64,000 bases of DNA, taken from the NCBI GenBank assembly GCA_030272585.1, contig BSYQ01000016.1:496001-560000 (forward strand), given 5' to 3'. The notes under the pieces were generated by a model. It searched no databases. It was not told the origin of the DNA and worked only from the letters and a program-made list of their open reading frames with translations. The position numbers and the translations under genes were made by a program. Positions 32,935 to 62,296 of the stretch are shown here, piece by piece. Within the stretch, counting starts at the first letter, position 1. The number at the start of each line of letters is the position of its first letter. The stretch comes from Bryopsis sp. KO-2023 (Eukaryota > Chlorophyta > Ulvophyceae > Bryopsidales > Bryopsidaceae).

Positions 32935-34115
32935 ATTCTTGCCTACACGAAAGTTTCACGAGACACCCTTAAGGATCCCTGTGGCTCTGGTGAAAACAGG
33001 CTCTAGCCACGTGTGGAGAAAGGCCCTCTTATTTGAAGAGGGGGGCCGCGGCGGAAGGGTGTGAATCATTGCTGGCGAGCGTTCAACAAATAGTCAATTG
33101 TTGGTGTATGAGGGTTGAAACCAAACAGGCAATTCGCTTTGTCTGGAAATCCGTGCGTGTCAATCAGACCCAAACAAAGAAACGCTAATTCCGACTCGTT
33201 TTCCGTTCTCGTATGGACTTTTCCGTTGGCTTGTTTGCTGTTTGCTGCCCTTCGCAATCAATGGACATGCCCAAATGGACCAAGATTGGTTTGTCAACGG
33301 TACAAGAGAATTCAGGCTTGAACAAACAAACGAACAAGATATCATGCGAATACCTATTGCAATTGGTTTGTGCGTAGGTGGAACGAAAGGGAGGAGAATG
33401 AGGCACGAACGAGGGATGCTGTTGTATTAGAGGTAGGTGCCGTGGCAGCAGTAAACGAGTGAAGTAATGCGTGGCGAATGAAGTGTGATGGTTTCGAGCG
33501 GCAGCACAGCAAGGGCTCGTAGTGTTGCTTATGTTTTTTGGGCCAACGAACTGGGGTCTCCTCCCATCCCGATTCATTGTCAATGTCCAGAAGTGCTTTA
33601 AGTTTTTCGTTGGAAATCTCGTGTGGTGGAAATTGTCACGTTGCGATGAATGTTTTGAAGTAAATGGAAGGACGGCTCACTTTTTGTTGTGAACATTGGA
33701 AGTGAACGAAGTGCATGATTCTTTTTTTCTTCAGCAACCTTTGCTGAAGTGTTCGCTACTTATGCCTAACATTTTTGGCATGCTGGCGATCCAGAAAAAA
33801 CGTCTTGCATCACCCCCTTTTCTTTACAAGTTTTGGCCTGTGTCTTCAACAATCAATCAAGGGACTTGGTTGCTCAACAGTAACGCCCACTGGAATTTTT
33901 TATTTCTTTTCCGTCCAACTTAAATAGTACAAACAATAATAACTTATTCCCTGACAAGTAGTTTTGATTCAAACCAAAATCGATGACGCAAATGTTATGA
34001 GTTGCTTTCCAGAAGGTCGTCTTTTTCACCGACGCCTACTAAGTCCCACGGGATTAAGCACAGAGTCAAGTTTGCCAATCAGCCAGCATGAAGACTGCAT
34101 TTTTGACGCATCGAC
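32935..34115. other. Intergenic, no gene seen
   Basis: Nothing beyond short chance ORFs. It includes the 5' flank of the Cys-rich gene and the 3' flank of the ankyrin gene. Confidence 0.45.
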
Positions 34116-34603
34116 TCAGGGAGTGCCATTTTTCGTCAGGATATTGATGACATCCACTCTTCCGTAGTTCTCAGCCGTTTTAAGAGGGCTGAGGCCAGCC
34201 TCGTCGGTTACATTGGCGTTCGCCCCAGCCTGAATGAGCTCTTCGACCATCCAGATCCTATGAGAATAAAGCGACGCGAAATGCAATGGCGTCTTCGAAG
34301 CCAAAAACGAGTTGTTAGAATCGAAATATCTGACGTTCGGATTCGCTCCAGCCTTCAGCAACGTTTGTATTGCTGAATCTCTCCCAAAGACTGAAGCAAT
34401 CGCCAGTGGAGTGTTTCCTGCACTATCCTTCACTTCCAGATCAGCTCCCAGGTCGATTAAAGCCTGGAGAGGCGTCGTTTTCCCCCATTTCGCAGTGATG
34501 TGGATGGGCATCAGCCCATCGGCGTCCAGTGCTTCTAAGTCGGCGCCGTCATCTACCAAAGCTTCTACGCCCACTTCGATAGGGTTGCGTCCAGAAAACA
34601 CCG
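34116..34603 (-). pseudogene. Ankyrin-repeat gene, 3' half (cut off by CACTA-like insertion)
   Basis: 161 codons of ankyrin repeats, at least four units: GADLEALDADGLMPIHITAK, GADLEVKDSAGNTPLAIAS, GANPNVRY...TPLHFAS, GANANVTDEAGLSPLKTAE. It then ends with a stop at 34116. The frame has no ATG and runs straight into the transposon terminus at 34604. The 5' half of the same repeat lies at 46700-46782; both reach the CGG target triplet in compatible frames. Ankyrin repeats mediate protein contacts, so no specific function can be given. Confidence 0.85.
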
Positions 34604-34640
34604 CACTATGGGAAAACCCGCTCTGTGCGGGGTAGTAAAA
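34604..34640 (+). repeat. Left TIR of the CACTA-like element
   Basis: Thirty bases match the right end in inverted orientation except at positions 7, 13 and 15. It includes one CTGTGCGGGG motif, many copies of which lie near the right end. Confidence 0.85.
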
Positions 34641-35492
34641 TCACCGTCGACTTCCGCCGAAAATCGAAGTCGCGAAAACCGACGCGGCAGTGAAAGGAAA
34701 TGGTCGGAATTACAGTTGGTTATTCCAACCTGTCAGATCCAATCAATATACTTCCATTCATCCACAGATGGATTCCATGCTTGCTTTTAACAATCAGCTA
34801 TTCCAGTTTGTCAGACCAATCCAATGTACCTTCACTTCTTTAAGGATGGTCTCATAAGGTTACCTTCTTCTGACTCAACTTCTCCACTGCAGCTTTGCAG
34901 TTCCTTTTTTCTCCATTTTGCTGGCACTGGCTGCTGCCTCCCTTCCTGCCTCCTTCTCCTGATCTCCACTCCTACACTCCACTCAAGTTACTGGCCACTC
35001 ACTCGAATAAGACACTCTTTCCTTAACTTAGTAAACTTCACTCCAGTTCTCTCCATGACAGAAGAGATTTGGTGCCCAGACCTTTGGAGTTTTTGTGGTT
35101 TTAAAAGAAGAAGGATAAGAATGGACTTCGAGAAGGACAATTGAGTAGTGGAGATGAAAGGGAGAAGGAAACAGGATGGCTAAAGAAAGACATCCAGCCA
35201 GAAAAAACACAGTCGATTGCAGACATGCAATTGTTTGTTTGAAACCAAACACCATGGTTACAATCCAGGAAAAGAAATCAATCGGAATCCAGAACACCCC
35301 CAATTTCCATCCTCAACATCGAATCGAAAATTCCGTCACAGACAGCAGCCTGTCCCATTTGCATGCACCATTTCTCTACTTTCTGGATTTGGATCCGGAT
35401 TTGTGCCCTGCAAGGAAAATGGCACATCCAGAAAAAACAACTTCGCAACACAGGAAGCATGGAAATAAATTTCTATCCCGAAAAAACGACGC
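34641..35492. other. Left internal part of the CACTA-like element, no gene
   Basis: No coding sequence recognised. Two imperfect direct repeats ~79 bp apart (around 34,720 and 34,800, each with ATTCCA...GTCAGA...CCAAT) stand out. The DIRS-like pol stop lies at its right border; the exact DIRS terminus was not found. Confidence 0.5.
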
Positions 35493-38400
35493 CTAGGTCG
35501 CCCTATCCCGCGTTAAGTCGTCGAACACGAAACGTTGGGCGAGTGTTCGAAGTTCTCGCCAGGCGTCGGCCTCGGTGTCGAGAACATATCGGAAGACGGC
35601 ATCCGACCGCCATCTCCCCTGTGTTTTGATTTGTCTCACAGGGGCGCCTGCTTGACTCATAAGAGTGGCGCCCCCTTTGCGTAGGCTATGAGTGCCGTAG
35701 AGGTGGCGGGGTACTTCCGGCATAGCCGATGCGATGTACCCAGAAACACGGTCAGCAAAACCGCGAGGCGAGAGGTGTCTCGCCGCATTTCTCGCCAGCG
35801 GAAACACAAAAGCACTGCGTAACTGCAGCAGATACGCTCGCCCCCGCCGATCAGGACAAACTGCCGCTAAACTTTCTGGCAGTCGAGGCAAACGTACCCA
35901 TGTCCCCTGCCGATGGGTATCTGTTTTTGACTGCGGTAGAAATAATTCAAGTCCGTCTGGACTTGCCAATTTTAAGTGTTCTGCGCGAACACAAACGAGC
36001 TCAGAAACTCGCAACAGGCCGAAAAAAGCTAAGCAAAAAGCAAAGGCGTCACGAGTGCCAATCATCGATGAGACCGCATCAGCCGCCTTGACCAGCTTGC
36101 AGAGCTGGTCCAAGGAAAAGGGCTGCTTCGCTTGCTGCGTGCCTGTCCCGAGTTTTTTCTTTGCTGCTTCCACACACTGCTGAACGCCAGTCCACGTCCA
36201 AAGATCCTCCCCTTGCTGAAGCCACACTGTTTTGGCAAGGGCGGCCATTCCTGTCGCGATCGTATTGAACGCCAACCCCATCACGACTTGAACCGAAATC
36301 CAAGTTGCAACAGAATGCTCCGAAGCAGGAAATGGCGCCAACTGCGCCAAGTTGCAGACCTGCGAATATTGTCTGACCCTGGAAGCGTATGTCTGCTGCG
36401 TACTTGCTTCCAGATGCGCTTTGGCTAACGCGCGCCAATCCAACGCCTGTTCTCGTAGAACAGGATTTTGAAAAATGGCGGTAAGAGACCGTTTGGGGCT
36501 CCCTGGCACCGTCGGAGCTGGACGTAACGTCTTCGTCGAACAATGAATCGGGCTGGGGAAAACGACTGATACCACCGCGCAGTGCATAGCGTGACCTGAA
36601 CTCGTTCGGGGTGTCCCCGTCCCAACATCATTCCGCATCGTGCCTGGTAAAAAGGTATCTGCTTGCTGTGGCAAGCTGAAAGTATCACGGATATACGGCT
36701 TTAGAGTGGCAAACCAGGGAGCTGCGGGCCACCAAGGAATGACCAAAACGCCACTTCCGCCATGCGACAGTAAGTGGCGGACGACGTCGCCCAACATCGA
36801 GAAGGGGGGGTTGCCGTAAAACTTTCCCTGGGTCCACGCGAAAGACAAGGCATCGACGGCAAAAGCGCCGACGTCATGACTCTCTGAACAAAAAGGCAGA
36901 GGTTCGTCCGTTTCTGGATTCCTTTGCCGATTAAGGTTCGACGCAAATAAATCGATCGTGAACGGTCCCCATAATAACCACACGTAGTTGAACCACAGCG
37001 GGTTCAACTTGTAGTCCTCTGGGTGAAAAACCCGTGACTCTTCATCAGCACCGGAATCGATAATCGCCGCAGACCCAACGAACCCAATAGTCAAGGAAAA
37101 ATCTCCAAGCAACTCGAGGGTAGCTAAGGCGAGCACAAGCAGGTTGATTCCGTCGTTAAGGGAAGGAGAACCAGCGTTTTTCCAAAACCCCCGAACACCT
37201 GTAGAATCGGTGCGAACTAAAATTCGTTTCCCGACAACATGAGGCCAAAAAGCGACAAGTGCCGCGAACACGCCCTTCAACTCCGTCCAAACGGAATCGG
37301 TCGCCGTAAGAGTCGGCCAACGTCCCTGACCGCGCAGCGGCGTCACATTGTGGGATGCTGTAAAAAGTCTGGCTCCCCATCCAAGTCCGGACGCGTCGGT
37401 GTATAGAACCACACGGGGAGCCGTAGTTTCGACATTCATGCCGTTCAGTTTATCGAAATTAGCCTGGAGCAACCTCAAGTCGTCACGCACCTCCGGTGAG
37501 GGGTGTAACAAGAAGGAGTTATTACGGACCCCCTTCGACGAGATTGGCAATTTGCTCAAGAGCTGAAACATCGACCTAGAAAAAAATCGAGCCAAAGGAA
37601 TCGCGGGGAGGGTGGCGACGACGTAGCCGACCACACGCTCCGCCTGCTGTCCGGAAAAATGTTGCACCTGCAGCAGATTTCCGACGGCTTTTTCACTTTT
37701 CTCTAGTTTCTCTTTGCTGACAGAAACTCTCGCCATCGGTTCCGACTCCACGATAAAGCCAAGAAATTTAACGCGCTTCGTGGGAACGAGGTTAGACTTA
37801 GCCATGTTCAGTCGCAAACCGAGCTCAAACAGATCGGCGAAAACAATTCGCTGCGTTGCAATGACGTCTTCTAGAGACACGTTAAAGAACAGGGCGTCAT
37901 CGAAATACAAGACGACTCTGATGCCGAGGCTCCGCCATTTTCTGACTAGCGGCCGCAAAAGTTTGGTGTAAGCGAAGGGTGCGTTCGACAGCCCGAAAGG
38001 CACGCATTTGAATCGATAAACTCGTCGGTCGAGTTCGAAACAACAGACGCGTTGCAAGTCTGGGTGAAGGGGCAATTGAAAATAGCCCTTCTTAAAATCA
38101 AAGCCCCAAAGAAAATCCCCTTCGCGGAGCATTTCCTTTACGACTTTAATCCCTTCCAGACGAAAACCGGGAGCCTGAAGACATTCATTCACTGCGCGTG
38201 CGTCGAAGCAAAAGCGAAATAAGTCAGGAGGTGGTTTTGGCGCTGTCTGCAGCGGCGATAAAAAAGCCACTTCTTGCGAGTCGTCTTTGAGATGGGTCAC
38301 GTCTTCGACAGCGCCCCACTCTAACATTCGTTTGACTTCCGTTCTGAGAAATTTCCATTCGGGATCGCTAAGGCGATACTGTTTTAGTTGCCTCTTTGCG

Positions 38401-38527
38401 ATCAGAGTGTTTAGACCGTGCAGTTCCGCACGAAAACCATGTTTGACCCAACTAGGTACCGGCGAACCAGGAGAACACAAGGTTTTCCAGTGTTCGGAAA
38501 ACCGACTAATGTCGCCGGTTTTGAATG
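35493..38527 (-). CDS. pol: DIRS-like Pol: RT, RNase H, Dam-like methylase, tyrosine recombinase
   Basis: About 1,010 codons, with no ATG because the frame runs in from gag across the MITE site. Counting from a TTG at 38480: RT (FCFDARAVN, FGLSNAPFAY, YFDD ~195), RNase H (LYTDASGLGWGA ~355), and a Dam-like N6-adenine methylase block (DLFASN, then YGNPPF ~565, with VIPWW). The tyrosine recombinase (~720-990) has LLRVSEL for the first Arg, HSLRKGG (H-x-x-R) and GRWRS...FRYVL carrying the Tyr. All catalytic motifs look intact. The recombinase would insert a circular DNA copy without a target duplication. Only the MITE breaks the gene. Confidence 0.92.
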
Positions 38528-38535
38528 GCCCTGAT

Positions 38536-39840
38536 CAGACCTGGGCGCCGACCCGTTGGACCGGACCGGACCGGACCGGCAACCAGTTTCTGGACCGGAT
38601 TTGACCTTTCTTAGACAGGTCAAATCCGGTCTGGAAAGGTCAAATCCGGTCCAAGAAATGTCAAATCCGGTCTAGTAAAGGCCACCTTTTCTAGACCGGA
38701 TTTGACCTTTCTGGACCGGATTTGACCTTTCCAGACAGGTTATCGCCTGTCTAGTACGGTCATACTCGTGTGACCTGTTTTAGACCGGTGTGACCCTGTT
38801 TTAGACCGATGTGACGCCCAATATGACCTGTTTTAGACCGACTCCAAGTCGGTCTGGACAGGTGGGCCGCCTGTCCAGACCGACCTGGCACCTGTCTAGA
38901 ACAGGTCACACAATTAAGCACTTTTTAATGTGTTAATCGACTGAGAACTGATTCAATGGATTAAAGAACAAAGTATTATTTATTATATCCATTTTTAATG
39001 CATGAATGACGTGAGCCAAGCCCACCAGCCACCGACTAGAGGGAGTCGGTCGACTCAAGGAGGATTCGAACCCGGGTTGGCTAAGCCCGAGTCGAAGACA
39101 CTATCACTAGTGGACCCCACCACAGGGACGCTCAAAAGGGGGCCGTTACTTTTAAGTACCCGTTTAATTTTCCAAAATTAAACGGGTACTTAAAAGTAAC
39201 GGCCCCCTTTTGAGCGTCCCTGTGGTGGGGTCCACTAGTGATAGTGTCTTCGACTCGGGCTTAGCCAACCCGGGTTCGAATCCTCCTTGAGTCGACCGAC
39301 TCCCTCTAGTCGGTGGCTGGTGGGCTTGGCTCACGTCATTCATGCATTAAAAATGGATATAATAAATAATACTTTGTTCTTTAATCAATTGAATCAGTTC
39401 CCAATCGATTGATACACAATTAGCACGTTAAAAGTGCTTAATTGTGCGACCTGTTCTAGACAGGCTCCAGGTCGGTCTGGACAGGCAGCCCACCTGTCCA
39501 GACCGACCTGGAGCCGGTCTAAAACAGGAGAACAACCCTGTCAAGACAGGGTCGTTCCGGTTTTAGACAGGTCACATCGCCGGTCTAATAAAGGCGAAAT
39601 GTGGGTGTGACCTGTCTAAAAACGGAAAATCTGTCAGAAAACCGGTCCAGATTTCTGCAGATTTCCGAGGTTGACTGGACCGGAGTGGACAGGACCGGAC
39701 AGGTCACAACCTGTCCGGTCTTGCAAGGACCGGCGTTTTTTCGTTGGACCGGACAGGACCGGACAGGTCAGCCGGTCCATGGACAGGTTGGACCGGACCG
39801 GACCGGTTTTTCGCTGCCGGTCCGGTCGGGCCCAGGTCTG
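38536..39840. mobile_element. hAT-like palindromic MITE, copy 2
   Basis: 1,305 bp with the same CAGACCTGGGC/GCCCAGGTCTG ends as copy 1 and its own 8-bp TSD GCCCTGAT (38528-38535, 39841-39848). It is centred on an inner palindrome at ~39,170. It differs from copy 1 by few substitutions and by 42 bp (39,478-39,520) that copy 1 lacks; CGGTCT at both edges suggests deletion between short repeats in copy 1. It inserted into the DIRS-like gag-pol frame. The 8-bp duplication plus 1,305 bp would destroy that frame, so the DIRS-like element is older. Confidence 0.93.
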
Positions 39841-40810
39841 GCCCTGATCGCAAAGGTAACTGATAGCGAGTAGCCCACGTTTGAGCATCCGCGTATTCGA
39901 CTGATGGGCGCAACGCAGGACGTTTTTGTAGAACACCGAGAAACATCCCATGGATAGTCCGCCGCACCAGCAATCCATTGTGGCGAAACTGAAGGGAATC
40001 GACCAGGGACGTCAGTTTCTGGACAGTAACGTCTACGTTTTGTTGAACGCCCGGAACTACCGTCGCTATAGGTGCGACATGCATCTGGGGCATGCCGGGA
40101 ACCAGCTTCCCACGGCAATGAACAGCAGTTGTTAAGCATGGGAACTTACTTTTTCGAGGGCTGTCGGGTTCCCTGTCTGCATTTCGCTTGTTGATTGCTG
40201 GAAGTAACCTCCGGAGAAGCGATAACTCCTGTGACTGCGCCGGCTGTTTCCTGCCCGAAAACGTTCGTTGCATGGGTGGGGCTTCTGGCAGATTTTGCGT
40301 AGACAACCATTGGCTTGGAAAATTACTGTCCTCTGAGGCTTTGACCCGATCGTCGTCGGAGATGCGGCCAATTATCTGTGTCACTTGTGGGTTTTTCCAC
40401 CCGGCGCCATGCCCTTTCACCAGAATAGCGCGAACCAGAGCAGCACTACCACGGATTAGTTCCTGTCCGTCTGCCAAAGGCATCTCCCGGGACTGTTGGA
40501 ACGCTTTGTCCATTTCTAGCGACGCAGCGGCTGCTGGTCCTAGAAAGGTTGAGTGGATCAGCGGTGTAAGGCTCTCCTGTGTGGTGTTTGCACTCATACG
40601 TGCGAGTTCAGTTCGTAGAGACGAGTTTTCCCGGCGAATATCATTTTGCACCGCAGCAATGTCCGACACATGGGCGATGAGCTGAGACAGTTGCTCGGCC
40701 GTAGCCGGAGCAGATACTTCTTCTTCGATATCATGAACCTCTGGAGTGGATTCTGGCATATTTGCGCGAGTTGGGGAAATTCTTGACCAAAACCCCGTGG
40801 ACATCAACAC
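39841..40810 (-). CDS. DIRS-like Gag-type N-terminal region
   Basis: About 323 codons from ATG 40810 (another ATG two codons on) to the MITE border. The N-terminus is acidic, followed by a coiled-coil-like stretch (SQLIAHVSDIAAVQNDIRRE) and helical segments; no zinc knuckle. Position directly upstream of, and in frame with, the RT makes it the Gag-like part of a single polyprotein. The ORF as read today continues into MITE sequence and is not meaningful there. Confidence 0.75.
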
Positions 40811-41368
40811 GTGAGACCGAGATAGCAGTGGGCGTGAACGGGAGAGTATTTCAGCTGGACTGGCAGCTTGCGACAGATGGCCTTGGATTGACTTGGCTGA
40901 GGTGAAATGGAAGTTGAGTTGGGACCGAAAGAGTCGCCAGAAACAACTTGCTTACAGCCGTCCCGACGAAGGTCAACGAACTGTGTACTGCCAGGTTGCT
41001 GGACTTTTGCCAGGTTAACTGGACTGGCTGGAAACTCAGGTCAACTGGGCCTGATTGTGCACAGGGAAAACTTTCACAAAGACCCCAGGGAATTCGATAT
41101 CCAAGCTGGAATTTGTGAATGACAACACTATGAATTTGTGAAGTCGATATGTGTACTCAGCTGACGGAGCTGGAAGGCTCCAAATTGCCAGACTGTAGCC
41201 ACTGAGGCAAAGCCAGCCTCTGTAAGAGTGGCAGGGTTCCTGGGAACCACTATCTGTGTAAGAAAATTCCAGGAAGTTGACTGGACTTGGGGAACCTGTT
41301 TGGACAGGGACTTTGCCTCAAGTGAGGACTACAACCCTTGGGGGGTTGCGAAGAAAGAATAGTATTGC
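40811..41368. other. 5' region upstream of the DIRS-like ORF, no gene
   Basis: No coding sequence recognised. Probably the 5' non-coding part of the DIRS-like element or CACTA-like internal sequence. Confidence 0.4.
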
Positions 41369-41582
41369 CGGTAATGCCGGACTTGGTGCCAGGAACGCTG
41401 GACTTTGTTCCAGTAATGCCGGATGGGTGCCAGGAACGCTAGACTTGATGCCGGTAATGCCGGACTTAGTGCCAGGAACGCTGGACTTTTGTTTTCCGGT
41501 AATGCCGGATGGGTGCCAGGAACGCTGGACTTTATGCCGGTAATGCCGGACTTAGTGCCAGGAACGCTGGACTGAATGCCTG
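41369..41582. repeat. ~42-bp tandem repeat, five units
   Basis: Each unit contains GGTAATGCCGGA, GTGCCAGGAACGCTGGACT and a short variable spacer. Alternate units carry ACTTAG or TGGG after the GCCGGA, so the array may have grown by doubling of a two-unit block. Confidence 0.85.
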
Positions 41583-42160
41583 AAACCTGGCTGGTTGCCA
41601 AGGAATCGGACTTAGGAACAAAGGTAGGTACGGGTAGCCGGAACGGAGTAGATGGCGGAACTGGACTTTAAGGATGGCGGACACGCTAGCCAGGGGCAGT
41701 GGACGATGTTGTAGCGGTTGGTTGTTGACTGGAATGAAGAGGAGCCCACCGAGGTCCGTGTAGGAGGTGGTGTTGACAGCAACGCAGCAGCAATTTGTTG
41801 ATGGATGTGCAGCAGTAGTCTTGGACGCTTGCGGAACTTGTAGACGAAAACCACGGAACAGACTGAACTGTCGGTGGTAGAGAGAACTTGTTTTGTTTTG
41901 AGTGAATATCACCCACAACGCCAGCGACCTAAGCCGAAGGCGAGCAGGCGAAAACAAAAAGGAAAACAAGAATTACCTTGCTTGTTTTTCTTGCTGCTTA
42001 AATCGTTACTCTGAATAGTCATGAGTAACCGCAGCTTTTTCAGGCTCTTGTTCGCTTTACATGAACCCCTGTAACAGGCTTTACTTAATTCTCAAGTAAA
42101 GCTTTCAATACCTGGGTTCGACTCCCAGGCATTCCTGTGACGATCTGGGGCCGGAAAACG
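41583..42160. other. Non-coding, with a T-arm-like sequence
   Basis: No gene. CCTGGGTTCGACTCCCAGG (42109-42127) is a perfect T-arm with a polymerase III B box, but no acceptor or D arm fits upstream. It may be a tRNA-derived relic. A CTTTACTT...AAGTAAAG hairpin lies just before it. Confidence 0.4.
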
Positions 42161-42188
42161 CCGTCGCTGACGAAGTCGTCAGCGACGG
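42161..42188. repeat. Perfect short hairpin
   Basis: Thirteen-base arms CCGTCGCTGACGA/TCGTCAGCGACGG with a 2-base loop. It lies just before a small cluster of three CCCGCACAG motifs (42,207-42,255). Function unknown. Confidence 0.6.
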
Positions 42189-42400
42189 ATGAAACCGCTG
42201 AAATCAACCCCGCACAGTCAGCCCCGCACAGAACAGTAACCCCGCACAGAGGGTGTCGCCCCATAATCGCTACTCCCATAATCGCTACTCCCATGTCCGC
42301 TACTGCCACCACCGCTACTCGTCGGATATCGGGGCAGCCACATCCCAAAATAGCTTTACAGAAACCAACCCCGCTTTAGTAAACCGCACAAACGCTCCGC

Positions 42401-45400
42401 AGGTGTTTTCCCCCTTCGTCAAGTTTATCGTACCTCGACTACATGTGTCCCGAAGCTTGGGACGCCTTGTTGGGAGTGTTCGGTCCACACGATCAGGAGT
42501 TCTCTTGTTTCGGCGCTGGGCCATGTGGTGTTTAACGAAAGCAGGCTCATGGGGTGTTCAGAAAAGGGGGTGGTGGATGTTGAGCGGAGCTTGAGGTTTC
42601 AGAACAGGGCGCTAGGGACTGATGGACAGGTTCCTGGATGTCCGCCCATACACGAGGTAGGGGGGTTCGCTCGTGCAGCATTCTATTCTATTTCATTTTG
42701 TTTGTTTGTTTTTTTTTCGGTTTATTTCTCTTTTTTTCATTTTTTGGGGGGTTTATAAATTGTTTTTTTTTCTGCTTTTTTTTGGTTCATTTTGTGTTTA
42801 CTTTCATTTTGTTTGTTTGTGTATATTTTTTTTTCCTGTTTTTCTTGGTTCAGTTTTTTTGTTTTTTTTCGTGTTTTTTTTGTGTTTGCTTTTTTAGCTT
42901 TTTTTTTTTTTTTTTCCCCGCACCCGAAAAGATTTGAAAGCACCATGCTAACGGATGAACATGAAACCCTTCACACAGGGCTCGGACTTTTGGAGTGTGG
43001 ACGATGCTAGTGCAAAGCAAAGTGATTCCGATAGACCACTACGTTCCGCTGGCAGAAGCGGGCTATCGACACCTGTCAGACAAGGCGGCCTTCATTCAGA
43101 AAGCTGCCATCACGCTGCTGAAAGAAAAAGACAACCCATTTTTGAAATCTGGGCAAAGAAAGTGAAAACAGAATTTTATAGAAACATACGTATTGCATTG
43201 GCTTTTTTTTTCTGTCTTATTTTTTTTTTCCTTTTTTTTTCGTAGTTCGAAATCGAAGGGCTGGATGATGCGGTCAGAACAATGTTGACTTTGATATTCA
43301 GCATGGATAAATCCATTCAGTCAAAAGTCATTGACGCTTTCAGAGACATTCACATCGACAGTCCTGGTGAGTGCGAAATAATATAACACTTTAATTGAAA
43401 AAAAATAAAATTAAGAAGAGTGAGTTTTTCAAACTTTGCATGGAAAAGGGTTTTAATCTCATTTTGAATTCAAGAAAAAAGAAAAAAAAGCCTCGAAGAA
43501 TTTATGTGAAACACAATTTTTTAATTTTTTTTTTCTGTTAATGAGTTGCAAAAAATAAACCAAAAAAAATCAGATTCAAAAACAAAAATGGCTTCAGAAC
43601 TAGTGTTTAAAAAAAAAAAACAAAAAAAACAAACACAATCAGTGTTTTTTTTTCTCATTTTCTCATTTCTTTATTTTTTTAATGACCTTGGTCAGATGAG
43701 GATTCTGAAAATCCAACAGGAACATCAGGAGATCCCCTGGTGACAGCAAACAATTTGATCGGACTGACGGTGGGTGTGACTGTGGAGGAAATGGTGTCTT
43801 TGGAAGAGATGGTCAAACATCTGTGCAAAAGTGGGTGTCTGCCAGACAGCGTCGCGATGTCCCTGATCCTCATATCGAACAGATATAGAGAGGTTAAAAA
43901 CGACGCGAAAAGAAATTGTCCCCTCTCGCCAAAGACGCGTTTGGTGGAGAGCAAAAGGGTGAGGATTCGAAAAGGGTCGAAAAAAAAAAATCTAGTAATA
44001 AAAACCTTGATGAATTTCTTTATATATACTTGAAAAAAAATGGGAATTCGGCCACTCGTGTATTTTAGTCGAGTTCGACTTGTCTTTCTTTTCCTTTTTT
44101 TTTTGGAGAATTAAGACCTTTCCAGTAAATTTTTGTTTTTAAATTCATAATTTTGCTGTTTATTTATTTATTTATTTTTATTTCCACCTGGAAAAAACAC
44201 ACACAAACATCCTCATTCTCAACATCCTAGTTGGAAATTGAGGTAGGTTATTGATAAAAATGCATATGCAACAGGCACATCCCCTGGATGTCTGGCAAAA
44301 CAAATCAGCTGTGAGGCAAAATCACCACCACATGTCATTGACACACTCAGGTATGAAAAAAAAAATCTATTCTTTTTCTCGGAAGCGATTTAATTTTCTT
44401 TTTTTTTCCATAGCGATTTCATTCTTGTAAAAAAAGAAAAAAAAAGAGAAAAAGGAAATAAAAGAACAAGGGGAGGGGGAAAGGGTCGAAACTTCACTTT
44501 TCATTTTTCTGCATTTTTCTTTGAGCTCCAAACAAAATCTGGGTATGTTAAAAAGATTGCATCATAAGTGTATTGAAATATATAAAAAAAATTAAAAAAA
44601 AATACTCAAGAGTTTTAAAGTGGAACGATTGTAAATTCAAAGTATTGAAGTGAATTCAGTCTGAAATTCATAGACGAAAGAAAGAGTTGAAAGGAAAAAA
44701 AAATGAAAAAAAATTGTTGAAAACCCTTAATTTTCTGTTATTGCTTAGGCAAGGGGTGCCATTCAAATACTTACTATGGGAATCGATCAGTGGAGGCCCA
44801 TGCTGGTCGGACATGTGGATGCAATCATCCAGGTAACTTTTTGTTATTAAACACAGGTACTATTTTTTATTTTTTTAAAAAGTGGTATGGAAATAAATTA
44901 AGGTAGTATATATATATACAGAAGAAATAAGTAAATATTTGTAAGGATGTCTAATAAAAACAATCGTTACATTTGATTTGGGAAATCTGAATTTTTAAAG
45001 TTTGTGGTTGATTGGCTGGTTGTGTTTTAACAATGAATGGTTGAATGGTTTTGTTTTTATTTATTTTTTTCATGTTGAAAATATATAGATTTTCCATGTG
45101 GATGATGTGGATGTAGTTGCATTGGAGTATGCATGCACATTGTTGAAAGAGATAATCATCGATTCATCGAAGCCATCTTCATTCAAGTCAGTCATTGGGG
45201 CGCTGCTGTCAGTCATCCTGAATGACAACATGCCTGACTCTTCCTGGTGAGTGTCACCTTGAAAAAAAAGAAAAAATGAAAGAATAATAAAAGAAAAAGG
45301 GGTAGCAGGACTGTGTTGATTTTTTTTCCTCCAAAAATAAAATTGCTTTTGATGAACTTTTCTTTTTTTTGGTTGCCCCCTTTTTTTTCAAATGTGCTTG

Positions 45401-45652
45401 AGAATATAATTTCCTTTTGTTTTTTAAAGGGAAGAGAAACAAAAACGTTATTTTTGAATATTAGAAGCTGTTTTTCATTTTCTAGATAAGAAAAAGATGA
45501 CATCATATTTTATTTACAGAAGTTGTCTCAAATCATTAAAAAAAAAGGAAATTACAAAAACAACGATGCAATTTAGGTACGGTGCGAGCACTGCTGCTGT
45601 GGATGCGTTGGTCGCCCTCTCCGCTAGGCCTGACCAGCTAGGGAAAATATAG
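42401..45652 (+). pseudogene. Condensin complex subunit 1 (CAP-D2) gene fragment
   Basis: Part of the HEAT-repeat region of the condensin non-SMC subunit that helps compact chromosomes. Pieces: 42401-42656, then exons 42979-43161, 43246-43366, 43696-43892, 44749-44832, 45089-45246, 45577-45652, joining in phase by GT-AG introns. Diagnostic blocks are DVRPYTR, VIPIDHYVPLAEA, KAAITLLKEKDNPF, GLDDAVRTML and ANNLIGLTVGVTVEEMVSLEE. The first piece needs three single-base frame changes within ~230 bases. The N-terminal and C-terminal thirds of a normal protein are absent, as is ~100 residues after DNPF. It lies wholly inside the CACTA-like element, so it is probably a captured, decaying fragment. 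Confidence 0.75.
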
Positions 45653-45994
45653 CGAAAATATCGAAGACTGAAAAAAAAACACGCAAAAAACAGCAACACC
45701 CAGACCCATCACTTTGGTTTTGATTCAGGAAACTGACTTTATTAAGACTTTTCCAGCCTCAGTGAACCCGGATTCATATGCATATGATAGAACAGTTGGA
45801 AGTGGGTCAGTGGGTCTGTTTTATTGAAAGACAAGCGCAGGGTCGGAATGGTAGGATTGGAGTTCATGGTTTTGGGCCTTTTTTTTTGTTTCTATTTCTT
45901 TTTTGGAATAAGTGGGAATGGGCAAGTCTTTGATAAAAAAAAATGGGGTCTACATTCAAAGGGGGTCTTGTCATCGTAGTTTTATTGTAACAAC
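45653..45994. other. Non-coding, no gene seen
   Basis: Unique sequence between the condensin fragment and the CTGTGCGGGG array; nothing recognised. Confidence 0.4.
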
Positions 45995-46699
45995 CACAAC
46001 ACAGATGTTTCTACAATCACACAGCATGCACACAACATAACCCCGCACAGCGACCCCGCACAGGGACGAAATACACCGGCACACGCCTTCACCAACCACC
46101 CCGCACACACAGATAAGGACCCCGCACGGGGGCGGAATACGCTGGCACACGCCTTCAACAATCACCCCGCACACAGACAAGAGGAGCCCGCACAAGGTTT
46201 TCACAGCCACCCCGCACAGAGACCCCGCACAGCTGTACGAGGGTATGACTCTTTCGTGCGGGGTGGTTCCAGAATCGCACAGCACCCTGAACACCCACGC
46301 ATAGGGACAGAATAGCCCCGCACGGCTCTGTGCCCGGGTTTGGCCGGTCTGTGTGCGGGGTCCCAATTTCACCCCGCACAGACGGGAACCCCGCACACAG
46401 AACCTGACGTCTTCCATATCCACCCCGCACGGCACCCCCGTACGGAGGATAGGGTACCCCGCACACTGTACGGGGCTATGTTTAATCTGTGCGGGGTCCC
46501 ACAACGGGAAAGACGTCAGGTCCTGTGTGCGGGGTTCCAGTCTGTGCGGGGTGAAATTGGGACCCCGCACACAGACCGGCCAAACCCGGGCACAGAGCCG
46601 TGCGGGGCTATTGTGGCTCTGTGCGTGGCTAAACACGGGTTTTAGGCTTCTGTGCGGGGTCAGTAAAACACCCCGCACAGAGCGCGATTTCCTATAGTG
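45995..46699. repeat. CTGTGCGGGG subterminal motif array and right TIR
   Basis: At least twenty copies of CCCCGCACA or its reverse complement in ~700 bp. A large foldback pairs ~46,318-46,425 with ~46,513-46,608, including GACGTC and CCCGGGTTTGGCCGG segments in both arms. The array runs into the right TIR (CGCGATTTCCTATAGTG, ending 46699). CACTA transposases bind clustered subterminal motifs, so this is probably the transposase-binding region. Confidence 0.8.
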
Positions 46700-46782
46700 C
46701 CGCTTCATCCAATCCCATCACAGCCGCCCAATGTAACGCCGTCCAGCCGTTCACAGTTTCCTTCGCGAACTTCTTGGAGCAC
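46692..46782 (-). pseudogene. Ankyrin-repeat gene, exon cut by the CACTA-like element
   Basis: Exon starting after the acceptor CCCACAG at 46783. It reads KKFAKETVNGWTALHWAAVMGLDEA up to the transposon border at 46700. NGWTALHWAA is a textbook ankyrin start, and the matching second half is at 34603 downward. In its present state the frame enters the TIR and stops at TAG 46694-46692. Upstream exons are not certain; the exon's phase fits the signal-peptide ORF at 48,521-48,876. Confidence 0.75.
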
Positions 46783-47393
46783 CTGTGGGATCGGTGTTTC
46801 ACATTTCAAACGACCTCTTGATTGCGCATAAACGCAAAACAACGATGTCGCCAGATGAAAAAGTCTTTCAACAAGTTTTTCCCTTTTCTGGGGGGGTATC
46901 AGCCTCTTGGAAAAAATGGTTTGGGACCTCGCATACATGCCATAGGCCAAAGCACTCAAAACATCCCGGTCTGCCTCCCTGTCGCTGATAACGAGAATAT
47001 TGCACGACCCCTCGAAACAGATACCAAGAGCGACATTCAGCAACACCGTTCGCTGAATATTTGGTGGCAACACCAAGATTTAATAATCAGCAAGCTTATT
47101 TGGGGGTCCAGATGTGTCTGCAGCCCGTCTGTCCATCCTACACCCAAAAAAGGGCATGCATCGTTGTGTCAGACGACGGCCTCCTCCACCGGATAAACCT
47201 GAGAGAGAAAAAAAAATAGGCACTCCGATTTCGTGACCAACAAAAGTTAGGGCAGATGCACATTTCAGATCCAGATTTGTGAGATTAGACTCAAAAATGT
47301 AAATCTGCATGTGTTTTTTATAACACCAGATAATAATGATGGAAAGGAACCAGCACATGCATTTAGAATCCCAAAAGATTAATATGTGCCCTC
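46783..47393. other. Probable intron/upstream part of the ankyrin gene
   Basis: A minus-strand open frame at 46783-47076 (SALAYGMYARSQTIFSKRL and onward) could be an exon, but no splice pair or family supports it. Otherwise nothing seen. Confidence 0.3.
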
Positions 47394-47757
47394 ATACCGT
47401 AAAAGTCTGAAAATAAGCCCCGGGCGTATAGAATAGTAAGCCCTAAAAAGGGGGCGTATACATGGACAGGGGCTTATATTCGGAACGCGTGACTTCGTCG
47501 ATCCAGCGGATGAAAGCGCGTCGAAGTGCTCCGTTCATGTCTTTCGACGACTGGTGGCCACGGGGGCGTCACTCGAAACCGTCTAGTGTGTCTATTCTGT
47601 TCTTTCTTGTTGCTGGGGATTTCATTGCGCGAGACGCGAGTTGTACGACCAAGGGGGCGTATACACGGACCACAAGTGTTGTTTTTCGTACCGGGGCGTA
47701 TACACGGGGGGGGGGGCGTTATTTGAGGGGGGGCTTATTTTCAGACTTTTACGGTAT
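47394..47757. mobile_element. TA-flanked MITE with 24-bp TIRs
   Basis: Perfect inverted repeats starting CCGTAAAAGTCTGAAAATAA and ending with its reverse complement, each flanked by TA, as in Tc1/mariner-type insertions. The interior (~310 bp) repeats GGGGCGTATACA and has a G run near 47,706. No transposase. The flanking CA/TG letters extend the match to 28 bp, which could be chance or part of the TIR. Confidence 0.8.
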
Positions 47758-48444
47758 GCATGGTAGACCCAATCTCCATCAAGACTATATTTCATCAAGA
47801 CATTACCTAGATTTAGCAATGGGCATAAATAATATTGCCACTTATCTTTATATATGTATGTTTTTTCCTGATGGTAGGTAGTCAGATCTCTCGAAAAGCT
47901 GCTACAGATCTTTGTCCGTATGGTCACATTTTGATTTTTCCGGGAATTCCAGAGTTTTTGCCTATTTGGTTTTCCAAAAGAGTGAATGTATTTCAACACA
48001 GATTGCACTGACCAGGAGAGCAACCGGACAGAAGGTTACAAGAATCTTCCAAAGGAACGCTGCATGTTGAGCTCAAATTGACTTCAGATACGGGGACCAC
48101 AATAGAGAACTTAGTCATCAATCCTCTCCAAGTAGATTGACACAGGAAATCCGCGCTCCTAAGAACCAATCAGAAACACATCAGGGAAAGCTGATAAGGA
48201 TTGGCCACTTTGTTACTGCCCACAGTGGAAGTGAATATGGACCTGTCTCTCTGGAATGACAAGTAGCACTTTTGCGACATGGTCGTCATGTAGAAATCTC
48301 TCTGCAAACCACTTTGCTAGTTAAACATCTCCTAAACCTATCACAACAGGCACAGCACCTCAGCAATCTCACTGGAAATGCTTTTATTTTTTCTCTAGCA
48401 TAAAGAGATTGCAAAAAACGCCCATGCAACATTGGACACAGAGA
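47758..48444. other. No gene seen
   Basis: Unique sequence, no coding features on either strand. Confidence 0.4.
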
Positions 48445-56644: not shown

Positions 56645-57664
56645 TCAGGCTTTTCTGAGTTTCACATTTCTGGATCCCCCTGAACTTCCAGGAGGTTTCC
56701 TTTTCTTTCCTTCTGGTCCACTGTCTCCGCCTGGCTCATTGACGACCCAATCCCCATCGTAGTCCGTTGGTTCTGCATCGTCTTCGGCTGCCTCGAATTT
56801 TCTCAGGGGGCCCACGGTCCGCTTGGCCTTTAAATACACTCCCCGAGTATAATCCGACCCCAACTTGAAACCCAAGGCGCAGAGTTTGCAGGTTTCCGAG
56901 TGTAGCACCATTGGTGGCCCTGTTTCAGCTGGTACCCACATTCTCCGCCAGTCTCGTTTTTCCTCATCGACTTCCAGACTGATACTCAGCCACACCCGAT
57001 CCCGACACCCGATATTCGAGCACACCCAGTGCCGTTGGCAGTCTTCTCCGGTCGGCTGACAGTTGCTGCTTGGGGTGCGACAAAACACGCAAGTGTGTTT
57101 TTCCCCCTCTTCGTGCTTCACTTCTCCGCTTGGTTTTCCCGACATGGACTCCACCATACTCTTCAACAAGTCTACCTGGCCCTTGAGCTGTTGGTTCCGC
57201 ATTTGCTCTTCCCGCAGCTTGTCTTCGACCCCGTCGAGCTTGTGGCGCATTTCCTCATCTGCCCCCTCCATCAGCAGCTTTTCCGCCTCTCTTTTCGCCG
57301 CGTCCGCTGAAGTTTCCGCCATCGCCAATTTTACGCTGAGGTCCTCATTTTCCGCCAAATATTTCGCCCGGTCGTCGAGCAACCGAGTGCGTTCAGCCTC
57401 CCAGCTATCTCTTTCCGCCTGAAATCCCCCTTCTTCTTCCAGCTCGCCGATCTTTTGCTTGAGTTGTTCTTTTTCCTCCTCCAGCTTTGCCATTTTTTCC
57501 AGGGCCTCCTGCTCATCTCTTTCTTGGATTCTTTCCAGTCTGGTTCCTTCCTTCAGGTACTCCTCCAGCATTTTGTTGATCCTTTCCGACACTCCCTCGA
57601 TCGCTCCAGCATTCTTTTTAATCTCCTCCAACAGTGCTTTGACTCCTCCACCAAACTCAACCAT
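56645..57664 (-). CDS. ORF3 of element C: coiled-coil protein with Cys/His cluster
   Basis: 339 residues from ATG 57664, 94 bases after the pol stop; an in-frame ATG at 57811 inside pol is an alternative start. Residues ~15-190 are strongly helical and charged (LEEIKKNAG, LERIQERDEQEALEKMAKLE), a likely coiled coil. A zinc-binding-like cluster follows (HTCVFC, NCQ, EDCQRHWVC, NIGC, then CKLC ~40 residues on). The C-terminus is acidic, then basic. I do not recognise the family. It sits where retroviruses have env but has no signal or membrane segment, so it is not an envelope protein. It may assist particle assembly or nuclear steps. Confidence 0.8.
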   Translation of the reverse strand: MVEFGGGVKALLEEIKKNAGAIEGVSERINKMLEEYLKEGTRLERIQERDEQEALEKMAKLEEEKEQLKQKIGELEEEGGFQAERDSWEAERTRLLDDRAKYLAENEDLSVKLAMAETSADAAKREAEKLLMEGADEEMRHKLDGVEDKLREEQMRNQQLKGQVDLLKSMVESMSGKPSGEVKHEEGEKHTCVFCRTPSSNCQPTGEDCQRHWVCSNIGCRDRVWLSISLEVDEEKRDWRRMWVPAETGPPMVLHSETCKLCALGFKLGSDYTRGVYLKAKRTVGPLRKFEAAEDDAEPTDYDGDWVVNEPGGDSGPEGKKRKPPGSSGGSRNVKLRKA

Positions 57665-57758
57665 GTTGTCTGCTTTCTTTTTCTTTTTCGAACTCCAAAC
57701 TGTCTCTCGCACACACTCGCACTCGCACACACTCAACCCGAACTCAGGAAAACAGGAG

Positions 57759-60700
57759 CTAGTCCATGGAAGATTTTTGACGTAAATACTCCTGCAGCAC
57801 TTGCTGCGCATTACCCAAGTGATGTGACGGGAGCCACTGGTCCTCTTCCGATCCGTATCCTTCCCAGGAAACCAAGTACTCTGTCACATTCTTCTTTTTC
57901 CGCCGTTTGGTTCGATGTGTCTTGATCTTTTCGACGATATATTCCTCGACTCCTTCCAACACCACTGGATCTGGAGGTGGAGAAATAGCCCTGGCTGGAA
58001 ACTCTTCTGATCCATCTTCAAATGCTTTTAGCTTGGAAACATGAAAAACATCATGTATTTTCCAGTGATTAGGAAGTTCCAACCTGTAAGTTACTGATGT
58101 CACAATATCAATAATTCTAAAAGGTCCACAAAACTTAGATACCAACTTCCGGCCCATCATTGGCGGTAAAGGTAAATCAGCTGTCGATAAAAAGACATAC
58201 TGATTTAATGCAAAACTTGCATCCCTCCGCCCTCGGTTTGCGACAGCCCTCTGTCGCTGTTGGCTTTTCAAAATCGCTTTCCGAGCCAGCTGTAAACTTT
58301 TAGCCCAAAATGTCCACCATTCATCTGAAACTGGACCTGAGTCTAACAAATCCTGAGGGGATCTGGGATGTTGCCCATAAACCAAATAAAAAGGTGTAAA
58401 ACCTGTTGATGAGTGAACGGATGAGTTATAAGCAAACTCAGCCGCCACTAATTTAGTGTCCCAATCACCCCCTATGGTCGAAATATAAATTCGCAACATG
58501 TCTCCGACTACTCGATTTGCCCTTTCAGTCATTCCATCAGTTTCAGGGTGATATCCCGATGACATGGCTAAACGAGTTCCCGCTAATTCCCACAGTTTTC
58601 GCCAAAACTGGCCTGTAAAACGAGTATCTCGATCGGAAATAATAGCCTCTGGCAACCCATGATGTCTGAAAATTGTATCAAAGAAAATTTCAGCTACCCC
58701 ACTAGCTGTAACTGCAGTAGTGGTGGCTACCAAGTGGATCATTCGACTAAAACGGTCGACCATAACCACTAAATAATCATGACCCTTTTGTGTCATAGGT
58801 AAAGGTCCCACAAAATCTAAACAAACTTCTTTCCAGCGTTCGTCTGGAACTGGAATTGGCTGATATAACCCCAATGGTTTTTGAGTGCTAGACTTGTTTT
58901 TCTGACAACCAACACAAGTCCTAACATATCGTTCGACATCCTCAGTGCATCTAGGCCAATAATATCTTTTTCGAACATTTGCGACAGTTTTGTGTCGCCC
59001 AAAATGTCCAGCCTGATCGTGACATTCAGCCAACACTGTTTGTCTAATTTCTTTGTCCTTTGGAATATACCAAAACCATTTGTCTTTCAGACTATACCAC
59101 AATTTTGTGCCATCCCACCTATAACGCGGATCTTTTTCACCAGCTTCCCAATTAGCTATAACTTCTCTGCAATGTTCATCCCCTTGATACGCAAGTCTAA
59201 CCTGATCCTGAAATACTACGCCTGCTCGGACTTTTGCCACAGCGTTTAATTCCATTTCCGACCTTCGACTCAATGCATCTGCAACTGTATTTTCTTTTCC
59301 AGGTTTGTATTTAATCTCAAAATCAAATTCCTGTAAAGTTTCCATCCACCTAGCCTGTCTACTGGATAGTTTAGGCTGCGTCTGAATATATTTCAGCGGA
59401 GCGTGGTCCGTGTGAACCACAAATTTCCTCGCCCCCAAATAATGTCGCCAAGTTTTCAAACAATAGACTATCGCATACAGTTCTTTTTCGTGTGTCGGAT
59501 AATTCCTTTCAGCTGAATTTAATTTCCGACTTTCAAACGCGGCTGGTTGTTGCCCCTGACCTTGATCTTGCGTCAAAACTCCTCCAATAGCAAAATCCGA
59601 TGCGTCTGTAGTTACTTCAAAACTCAACTCCGGATCTGGAATTATTAACACAGGTGCCTCCTGCATGCTCTTCTTTAGCGTCTGAAACGCTTTCTCCTGA
59701 CTTTCAGTCCACTGCCATTTAACTTCCTTCCTTGTTAGTTCATGTAACGGCGTTGCAATCCCAGAGTATCCCTTAATAAATTTCCGATAATAATTCGCTA
59801 AACCCAAAAACGACCTAATATCCCGAACTGTCTGAGGTTGTGCCCACTCCTTAATGGCTAAAACTTTCTTAGGTACCACGGAGAGTCCCTCTCTTCCGAC
59901 TATGTGTCCCAAAAATTCGACTTCTGTCATCCCCAAATCACATTTGTCCGGTGAAACGTAAAGTTTGTGTTTTTCGAGTAGCTGAAACACTTGTCTAAGA
60001 TGTTCCTTGTGCTCTTCCCAGTTCCGACTGTAAACTAAGATATCATCGAGATAAACTATAACAAACTTATCCAGATGTGGTCGAAAAACATCGTTCATCA
60101 CATTCATAAAAGTTGCTGGTGCATTTGTCAAACCCATTGGCATAACTGTGTATTCGTAAGATCCATATCTAGTTCGAAAAGCAGTTTTCGCCCAATCCTT
60201 TTTCGCCATCCTGACTTGATAGTATCCCGAACACAAATCTATTTTTGAGAAGTATTTTGCGCCATGAAGCTGATCTATCAGTTCATCTATCCTCGGAATC
60301 GGATAAGCGTTTTTCACCGTCACCTTATTCAATGCCCGATAATCTACACACATGCGTAGTTTCCCGTTCTTCTTCGGTACAAAAATTACCGGTGCTCCCC
60401 AAGGTGATCTACTCGGTCGAATAAACCCTTTTCCCGACATGGCTGCAATCTGAGTTTTCAGTTCTGCCATTTCCTTGATGCCTAGTCGATAAGGTGCTTT
60501 ACTTTGTGGAACCGTGCCTGGTTCCAACTGGATCGTGTGTTCGATACCTCTGGAAGGGGGTATCTCACTGGGTAATTCTTCCACAAAAGTGTTAGGAAAT
60601 TCCTGTCTGATTTCTGCTGTAAGTTCAGCTTGTCTGGAAACATTTTGTTCAGAGTCAGTTCTGTTCAAACATGTTTCAAACACCATCAGCACACACTGTT

Positions 60701-61304
60701 CCTCTTCCTCCTCTCCGGGGTTTGCCGGAGGAATCAAATGTTCTTTCAGCCCGTCTGAAACCACTACCTCATTCGTTCGAAAATCAACCCGGGGATTATG
60801 CTTAGCCAGCCAAGTTTTTCCCAATATAGCATCATACTTAGCAAGAGACATTTCATGAAAAATCTCCCTACTAGCAAAATCTCCAAATCTGAGAGTAGCC
60901 CTGATCTTCCCTTTAGATTCTAAGGTACTTCCCCCAGCCAGGCTAACTTTTTCTTCTTGTTCTTCTAATTCCAGCTTATTTTTCTCGCAAAATTTCCGAG
61001 CCAAAAAGCAATCAGTTGCTCCACAGTCTATTAATATCTCAGCTGCAAAACCTGAGATTTCCCCTTTCACAGTAATCAGTTGTCTAGTTCGGTTATCAGT
61101 TTCAGCCACTGCTAGAAATCCGAACTTAGTCATGTCTAAATCTGTCCCATCAAATGAATGGACTTCTAGGTTATCTTGGTTATCAGGTCTAGTCGGTTCC
61201 TTGGACGTTTCTTCCAACGAAAAATCCCTCGAATTCCTAGAATTCCTCGAACTCGCAGGCTTCCCCTTAACTTCACACCCTGTGAGTTTACCTAACATAC
61301 TCAT
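57759..61304 (-). CDS. pol: Pol polyprotein of element C
   Basis: 1,181 residues from ATG 61304; the frame is open to 61358 within gag. Protease [10 protein letters not shown] (Cys replaces the usual Ser of DSG), RT ([14 protein letters not shown]), RNase H ([11 protein letters not shown]), integrase zinc domain (GHFGRHK, CVGCQKN), and core acidic residues in [15 protein letters not shown] and [10 protein letters not shown]. The C-terminal chromodomain is EEYIVEKI...[10 protein letters not shown]. Complete and uninterrupted. The start ATG overlaps the gag TGA as ATGA, so termination-reinitiation is possible in place of frameshifting; pol lies in the -1 frame of gag. Confidence 0.95.
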
Positions 61305-62296
61305 TTTCGCGAGGGGCAGTCTCGAGCGTAATGCCCTCGACGCCCACACTTGTAACACTTCACCTCTCCGTCTGCTTTTTCTTTCTTCCAGACTGGCTTA
61401 TTTCTTTCTCTCTCTTTATCACCTCGCTGTTTCTGCTGTCTCTGTTGTCGCCTTCTTCCGACGTAGTCCAATTCCATGTGATCCGATCTGCGATTTCCGC
61501 CGCCGCCGCTGCCGCCGCCGCCGCCGCGATCTCGATTCAAGATCGAACTCCCAGATTGAGCTCCTCCCCACCTTTCCGCCACTCGAATAGCTTCATCCAA
61601 GGTCTTGGGGTTTTGGAGGTCGGTCTCGATACCAACCCTCCCTCGCAAACCATCGACGAACCTGTGTATTTTCTCGCCCTCTGATGCGTCGGAAATATAC
61701 AACATCAGCTGCCTAAAGCGATGCGTGTATTCCCGCACAGACATTCCGCCTTGGCGTAAATTCGCCCATTCTGTCCGTGTGCGGCGCAAAAAATGTGGTT
61801 CTCCGAACTGGTTTTTCAGCTCCTCACAGAAGTCCTCATACGTCGGCAAAGGTCGGCCTCCATCAGTCTCCGACTCCTCCACTCTTGTCCTCCACCATGT
61901 CGCGGCTGGCCCTCTCAGTAGAGATCCTGCCAGGCGGAGTTTCGAGACTCCATCTTCGACGTGGGTGGCGTCAAAATGCACTCGGAGGCTGAACAACCAG
62001 TCCTGGATAGGAGGGTCATTCTGCCTGCCTCCCCACAGATCAGGTCGGGCTGGCTTGCTTCTCAGGTCATTACCTCGACCACCACTTCCAGCCGCCGTTC
62101 CAGCCTGTGCTGCAGTTGCCGCCCCGATTGCTGTTCCCACTTTGTCGGTTAGTTGCTCCAAAATGGAGCTTCCCACAGCCTCATTGACCGCCGTGCTCAG
62201 CATTCCCGGTACTTCTTCGACCACGCCTTGCACTCGGTTCAACCTTCCCATTACCTCCTCATACGCCGCCCTCAACTCAGCCACCTGTTGCTCCAT
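61301..62296 (-). CDS. gag: Gag of element C
   Basis: 331 residues. Helical N-terminus ([18 protein letters not shown]), a gypsy gag core ([34 protein letters not shown]), a Gly/Arg-rich linker with a [10 protein letters not shown] run, and one knuckle [14 protein letters not shown]. The stop overlaps the pol ATG. It starts 7 bases after the stop of ORF c. Confidence 0.93.

Follow-up and report, generated by a model that had tools for sequence, protein, structure and literature searches.

In the genome of the siphonous green alga Bryopsis sp. KO-2023 (Ulvophyceae, Bryopsidales), a stretch of 64,000 nucleotides, referred to here as the window, contains an ankyrin-repeat exon that is interrupted by 12,096 bp of DNA with CACTA-type ends. 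This raises the question of what this DNA is, how it came to lie in the exon, and where the fragment of a host gene that it carries was taken from. The window corresponds to C16:496001-560000 of a 91-Mb genome assembly composed of 28 contigs. According to our analysis, the 12.1 kb are three nested elements: a 4.7-kb CACTA-like element with a captured fragment of CAP-D2 (condensin subunit 1), a 7.4-kb DIRS-like retroelement inside it, and a 1.3-kb hAT-like element inside the latter.

Taken as one account, the following history appears very probable to us. A non-autonomous CACTA-like Pack element of ~4.7 kb with a CAP-D2 fragment would have entered the ankyrin exon by cut-and-paste, thereby duplicating CCG. 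The DIRS-like retroelement would then have inserted into the Pack element without any duplication, and the hAT-like element would have entered the retroelement at some time. Mobilisation would have been provided in trans by a ~13-kb family, which has the same ends and encodes a candidate transposase. The CAP-D2 fragment itself would stem from a copy which, by the time of its capture, had diverged under purifying selection from the present resident gene, and the Pack element would have multiplied recently, after the capture.

A CACTA-like unit with a captured CAP-D2 fragment

Including all nested DNA, the CACTA-like element extends from 34604 to 46699 on the plus strand. It starts with CACTATGGGAAAACCCGCTC at 34604 and terminates with CACTATAGGAAATCGCGCTC (reverse complement) at 46699. 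The terminal inverted repeat (TIR) comprises 31 nt with a complementarity of 90%, where 27 of the first 30 bases agree. Directly adjacent, the triplet CCG is present at 34601-34603 and again at 46700-46702 as a target-site duplication (TSD). The left end, i.e., the TIR within the first ~105 bp (34604-34709, plus strand), is identical in the sister copy L021. The right end (45981-46699, plus strand) joins the TIR to short subterminal repeats, as seen from inverted repeats and from a motif count: 26 of the 27 occurrences of CCCCGCAC in the window lie inside the element and 21 of the 27 in its last 719 bp. TIRs starting with CACTA, a 3-bp TSD, and short subterminal repeats, by which CACTA/EnSpm elements are recognised, are all found here. 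The short motif CACTATRGGAAA occurs without mismatch exclusively at the two element ends. With one mismatch tolerated, the window contains three matches versus 0.39 expected. Because 2 of 100 shuffles likewise reach three matches, the motif by itself is evidence of little weight.

Genome-wide, the exact left 20-mer was found at 71 places and its reversed control at none; in contrast to the short motif, the long one is strong evidence. The exact right 20-mer occurs at 12 places, each of which has a correctly oriented left end at most 14 kb away, and a variant right 20-mer, taken from sister copies, occurs at 30. Within 40 kb, 36 of the 71 left ends can be paired with either kind of right end (12/12 of the first kind, 24/30 of the second); with these two right-end variants covered, 35 left ends stayed unpaired. 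Equal 3-base flanks were observed in 18 of the 19 end pairs that were read base by base, namely 9/9 of a first set, an element of 13,003 bp (see below), 4/5 of a second set, three CAP-D2 copies, and the window. In the 13,003-bp element the TSD sits in a G run and counts as weak evidence. The sole pair with unequal flanks, L065, speaks against a uniform picture; this deletion form has both ends and is perhaps a recombinant. The initial annotation of this DNA had described CACTA ends and a 3-bp TSD and had suggested a genome search for both; this search bears out the two descriptions, and the insertion with CACTA-type ends and CCG duplication is confirmed. An assembly break is unlikely to be the cause of the junctions, since all three nested elements recur elsewhere with identical boundaries, the contig carrying the window is 1.4 Mb long, and positions 34001-48000 contain no N. 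As a minor observation, two left ends on contig C2 (L005, L007) share the same 1.5 kb and the same 12-base flanks, which suggests a segmental duplication.

The size of the unit becomes apparent from its sister copies. Five other copies with a right end of the window type measure 4,694 to 4,751 bp, and three further copies with the variant right end measure 4,604 to 4,700 bp. Freed of the nested DNA, the window unit (~4.70 kb) differs by 0.21-0.28% from L021, L022, L028, L029, and L030, and by 1.2-1.5% from L019, L024, L025, and L027, which have the variant right end. Relative to its sister copies, the window copy contains 7.4 kb extra between ~34710 and 42107. Sites fixed between the two subgroups amount to 40/946 in the right end versus 3/2,268 in introns and 0/966 in exons. 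Both subgroups carry the cargo and are set apart by their right ends, a pattern resembling an exchange of this end.

The cargo was missed by the initial annotation. Between 42460 and 45650 on the plus strand, the unit carries a fragment of CAP-D2 together with introns, as established by exon-by-exon alignment to the resident gene L032, which extends past the captured part on both sides. The stitched exons of the resident gene match Pfam Cnd1 (1.6e-15) and show 26-29% identity to three Pfam-Cnd1 proteins, two of the three alignments covering just 35% of the query. In the PDB, one captured exon matches the solved condensin subunit 1 with E 0.0022. The plus-strand gene at 43-45.6 kb is CAP-D2, which rules out its being a transposase. 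The cargo retains its introns and was therefore captured at the DNA level. Owing to a 2-bp gap in one exon and the truncation of another, no ordinary CAP-D2 protein is possible.

With one resident CAP-D2 exon as a query, 15 genome places were found. One is the resident gene, 13 lie between paired ends, and the last, L031, is a CAP-D2 copy without a recognised element end within 9.5 kb. Nine of the 13 were read as complete, window included. It speaks against a uniform family that four of the 13 end pairs are 10.9 to 27.6 kb apart; such pairs may join ends of different elements. Two features by which Pack-TYPE elements are defined were found, a host gene fragment (CAP-D2) in a non-autonomous TIR element and the lack of an own transposase, in that 0 of 35 matches to the transposase exon described below, the one conserved exon searched, lie inside the window element. 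A donor copy in the same genome, which we do not treat as defining, was not found; what is identified is the captured gene itself. The 4.7-kb unit is thus a Pack-CACTA element carrying an intron-bearing CAP-D2 fragment.

The donor of the captured fragment

A captured gene provides a built-in test of element history, as the divergence of its exons and introns dates the capture and points to the source copy. Here, cargo and resident CAP-D2 are identical to 94.7% in exons and to 86.4% in introns, gaps excluded. L032, the only resident CAP-D2 gene that was found in the assembly, differs from the cargo at 5% of exon and 14% of intron sites, and the donor is probably absent from the assembly. Five gap-free exons (624 bp), whose boundaries were set in this analysis, contain 22 silent and 10 replacement differences, corresponding to 0.151 per silent and 0.021 per replacement site. 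If the cargo branch were neutral, it should carry ~36 replacements; ten or fewer have P 2.7e-7 by the silent clock and 3.5e-6 by the intron clock. The neutral share of the path between cargo and resident gene is at most ~14% (upper bound 25%). Among the 13 element copies (L031 left out), only 9/970 exon sites and 38/2,294 intron sites vary. Because replacements are few in relation to silent and intron change while the copies are nearly identical, the donor probably diverged from the resident CAP-D2 under constraint before the capture. Two aspects weaken this conclusion: the count is based on five short exons, and when all seven exons are included, decayed ones among them, the signal is weaker (P 4.1e-6 for silent sites and 1.8e-4 for introns).

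The donor would accordingly be a gene of another lineage, a lost paralogue, or an unassembled haplotype. A search of public data yielded no CAP-D2 similar enough for a test of the donor. Tentatively, and at less than even likelihood, we consider that the Pack element may have captured its CAP-D2 piece in another lineage, entered this genome by introgression or horizontal transfer, and multiplied thereafter. If this is true, the cargo would preserve a foreign CAP-D2 as a transposon-spread fossil, and captured exons and introns could be read as passports of an element's past whereabouts. A donor from another lineage would furthermore make captured host genes a general tracer of DNA-transposon transfer between species.

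A simpler origin, in which the resident CAP-D2 was the source of a cargo that then merely decayed, seems unlikely. The higher identity of exons than of introns has the direction expected with one neutral branch, and the gapped and the truncated exon testify to some decay; yet such a branch should have accumulated the 36 replacements instead of 10, and the cargo is almost invariant among its 13 copies. We consider it quite unlikely, too, that the captured exons were kept by selection since the capture, as a protein or a regulatory RNA. The low replacement/silent ratio of 0.14 would fit, as would the state of exons c-f, the four that were checked: 12 of 13 copies have them open, and the thirteenth breaks off within the last of these exons; however, the 2-bp gap and the truncation of the next exon preclude an ordinary CAP-D2 product. 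We therefore maintain capture from a donor that had probably diverged beforehand.

The interrupted ankyrin exon and the nested elements

The interrupted gene is encoded on the minus strand. The 5' part of the exon (46700-46790, its 5' boundary being provisional) is recognised by the frame KHRSHRCSKKFAKETVNGWTALHWAAVMGLDEA and by alignment with paralogues; its match to Pfam Ank (E 0.0021) is below the cut-off. The 3' part (34116-34603) is an open frame of 161 aa up to the stop codon with a match to Pfam Ank_2 (E 5.5e-19), and nine paralogues align with it at 49-55% identity over almost its full length. In minus-strand orientation, the sequence is KHRSHRCSKKFAKETVNGWTALHWAAVMGLDEA in the right flank and continues with VFSGRNPIEVGVEALVDDGADLEALD and beyond in the left flank. 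Rejoined via one CGG, the flanks form one open frame which aligns through the junction with all five paralogues that were read (L034 to L038). The loop that received the insertion differs in length between paralogues. Among the genome matches listed, there is no unsplit near-copy of the left half; the best other match in the genome has 55% identity. Further to the right, also on the minus strand, one or more upstream ankyrin exons at 46984-47182 and another at 48008-48169 are collinear with three of the five paralogues (L034, L035, and L037; tblastx/tblastn).

Judging from these alignments, both halves are parts of the same gene, a member of a small ankyrin family. This agrees with the initial annotation, which had proposed that one insertion splits one ankyrin gene with both halves still readable, and which had suggested a comparison with a contiguous relative: both parts of the exon are open, and the rejoined exon is uninterrupted in 5/5 paralogues. 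The gene has presumably lost its function. One finding speaks against the one-gene view. L036 and L038 contain pieces matching the upstream ankyrin exons on the opposite strand, and the upstream part is therefore not in a shared order in all paralogues. The genome is rich in ankyrin stretches (at least 157 matches), from which two halves of different genes might have been joined by chance, but with strand, frame and a single CGG shared, the exon contiguous in each paralogue read and the upstream exons collinear in three of five, this is extremely improbable.

Within the Pack element, the extra 7.4 kb are a DIRS-like tyrosine-recombinase retroelement (34710-42107, minus strand), which is absent from the sister copies. 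Reverse transcriptase (RT) and recombinase are encoded in one frame (35493-38534; Pfam RVT_1 6e-20, Phage_integrase 5e-7), with a second frame upstream (39704-40951). A 1.5-kb query matched 10 genome places at 99-100%, window included. The ends are identical within one base in all four other copies examined, and two of the four left ends abut a right end, i.e., the copies lie head to tail. These are L059 and L061, joined at one shared A. In L021 the target sequence is GGAAATACC; in the window copy, the block is preceded by GGAA and followed by ATACC. The DIRS-like element is thus inserted without duplication, as for recombinase-type insertion.

The initial annotation had treated the 12.1 kb as a single CACTA transposon, as the two ends and the TSD spanning 12,096 bp invite one to do. 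A single transposon with the RT and recombinase frames as its own proteins is excluded by the sister copies, which show a 4.7-kb unit without these frames; the RT/recombinase block moreover has its own constant ends at other places, and RT is not known as a CACTA protein.

With DIRS-type retrotransposons the retroelement has in common that RT and tyrosine recombinase occur together in one frame, that it inserted without target duplication (as seen from the junctions compared with L021), and that copies lie head to tail. In contrast to them, no inverted termini or split direct repeats were found in a self-comparison, and neither RNase H nor methyltransferase was detected by Pfam. Because these terminal repeats were not found, we name the element DIRS-like and do not count it as a proven DIRS member.

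The DIRS-like element in turn contains a hAT-like foldback element at 38536-39840. It has the TIR CAGACCTGGGC and is flanked on both sides by the 8-bp sequence GCCCTGAT (38528-38535 and 39841-39848). An 8-bp target duplication and a short TIR with this consensus are typical of hAT elements. Related copies with the same boundaries are present in L029 and L031. The middle of the element (38929-39416) is a near-perfect palindrome with two arms of 243 nt. By eye, a tRNA-like B-box motif, GGTTCGAATCC, is visible in the palindrome; ARAGORN reported no tRNA.

The 13-kb family, its candidate transposase, and known systems

An element of 13,003 bp on another contig (C2:211677-224679) has the same two ends as the Pack element. 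Within it, we built a model of ten exons with GT donors and AG acceptors, one acceptor being weak, which encodes 738 aa without a stop. The public gene prediction P0001 follows this model from the third exon on, except for part of the fourth. The candidate transposase exon of the model has 35 matches in the genome; 15 of these matches span the full length at 97-100%, and nine of the 15 are located between paired ends that are 12.2 to 32 kb apart. Seven shorter elements (L046 to L049, L065 to L067), with the ends and interior parts of the ~13-kb family, look like deletion forms of it, judging by their sequence. Because of its association with the ends, its copy number, and its intact frames, we infer that the 738-aa protein may act as the transposase for these ends. 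Large members with the candidate transposase and short non-autonomous ones occur together, and the system appears to have been active in recent times.

This assignment has to be weighed against several results. The 5' end of the candidate is provisional and lacks a start codon. No Pfam match had E <0.09, and among ~8,000 candidates sharing most words with it that were scored, no homologue outside this alga was found. A profile of eight members weakly matched a Transposase_21-like protein encoded in this genome (E 0.0021, probability 13%); with an earlier profile of three members, the probability was 4%. A single-sequence structure prediction of P0001 was too poor for use (mean pLDDT 31.6). The only proteins of the transposon family found in public data are annotated as hypothetical and come from Bryopsis sp. 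KO-2023. Searching the PDB with the candidate transposase exon and with its profile yielded matches at chance level only, and a genome search with Transposase_21 (PF02992) did not have the candidate family among its matches, two of which were over the cut-off on C12 (one locus) and one below the cut-off on C1. As a separate Transposase_21-like locus, L043 (C12:548569) is apparently interrupted.

Pack-CACTA elements have been described in Arabidopsis, rice and maize (PMC8903248, PMC13317346). The unit described here resembles those of plants as presented in PMC8903248: it is short and non-autonomous, has CACTA ends and a TSD, carries host gene fragments, and forms families of sister copies. Differences are given by the host, a chlorophyte alga, by a cargo without a close match to the resident gene, and by a candidate transposase that is not recognised by Pfam. 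For CACTA elements of rice and maize, TSDs of 5 nt are described (PMC8903248); a 3-bp TSD is given as part of the CACTA structure in PMC8978399. With autonomous CACTA/EnSpm elements, our elements share CACTA ends, a 3-bp TSD, subterminal repeats, and deletion derivatives of several kb beside the ~13-kb family, whereas the 738-aa candidate has no Transposase_21 match. The main text of PMC8903248 contains none of the words alga, Chlamydomonas and Chlorophyta, and that of PMC13317346, a review from 2026, contains neither alga nor Chlorophyt; in our searches of the open-licence literature, we found no green-algal report of a gene-capturing CACTA/EnSpm or Pack-TYPE element. The kind of element is already known. 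Noteworthy are its setting, a candidate transposase that Pfam fails to recognise and, most of all, the discrepancy between the cargo and the resident CAP-D2. Our findings extend gene-capturing CACTA-like elements to a siphonous green alga.

Further elements were observed beside these. L063 and L064 are other multi-copy elements, which have the same left end as the CAP-D2 unit and different middles. L064 encodes a SWIM zinc finger, a domain linked to MULE transposases. Outside the insertion, the window contains two chromodomain retroelements of the Ty3/Gypsy type on opposite strands (4204-9430 and 56648-62296) and a gag-like frame at 268-1446. Ty3/Gypsy-like frames were also noticed by eye a few kb inside three of the left ends (L039, L041, L042), and elements with these left ends seem to be struck often by retrotransposons.

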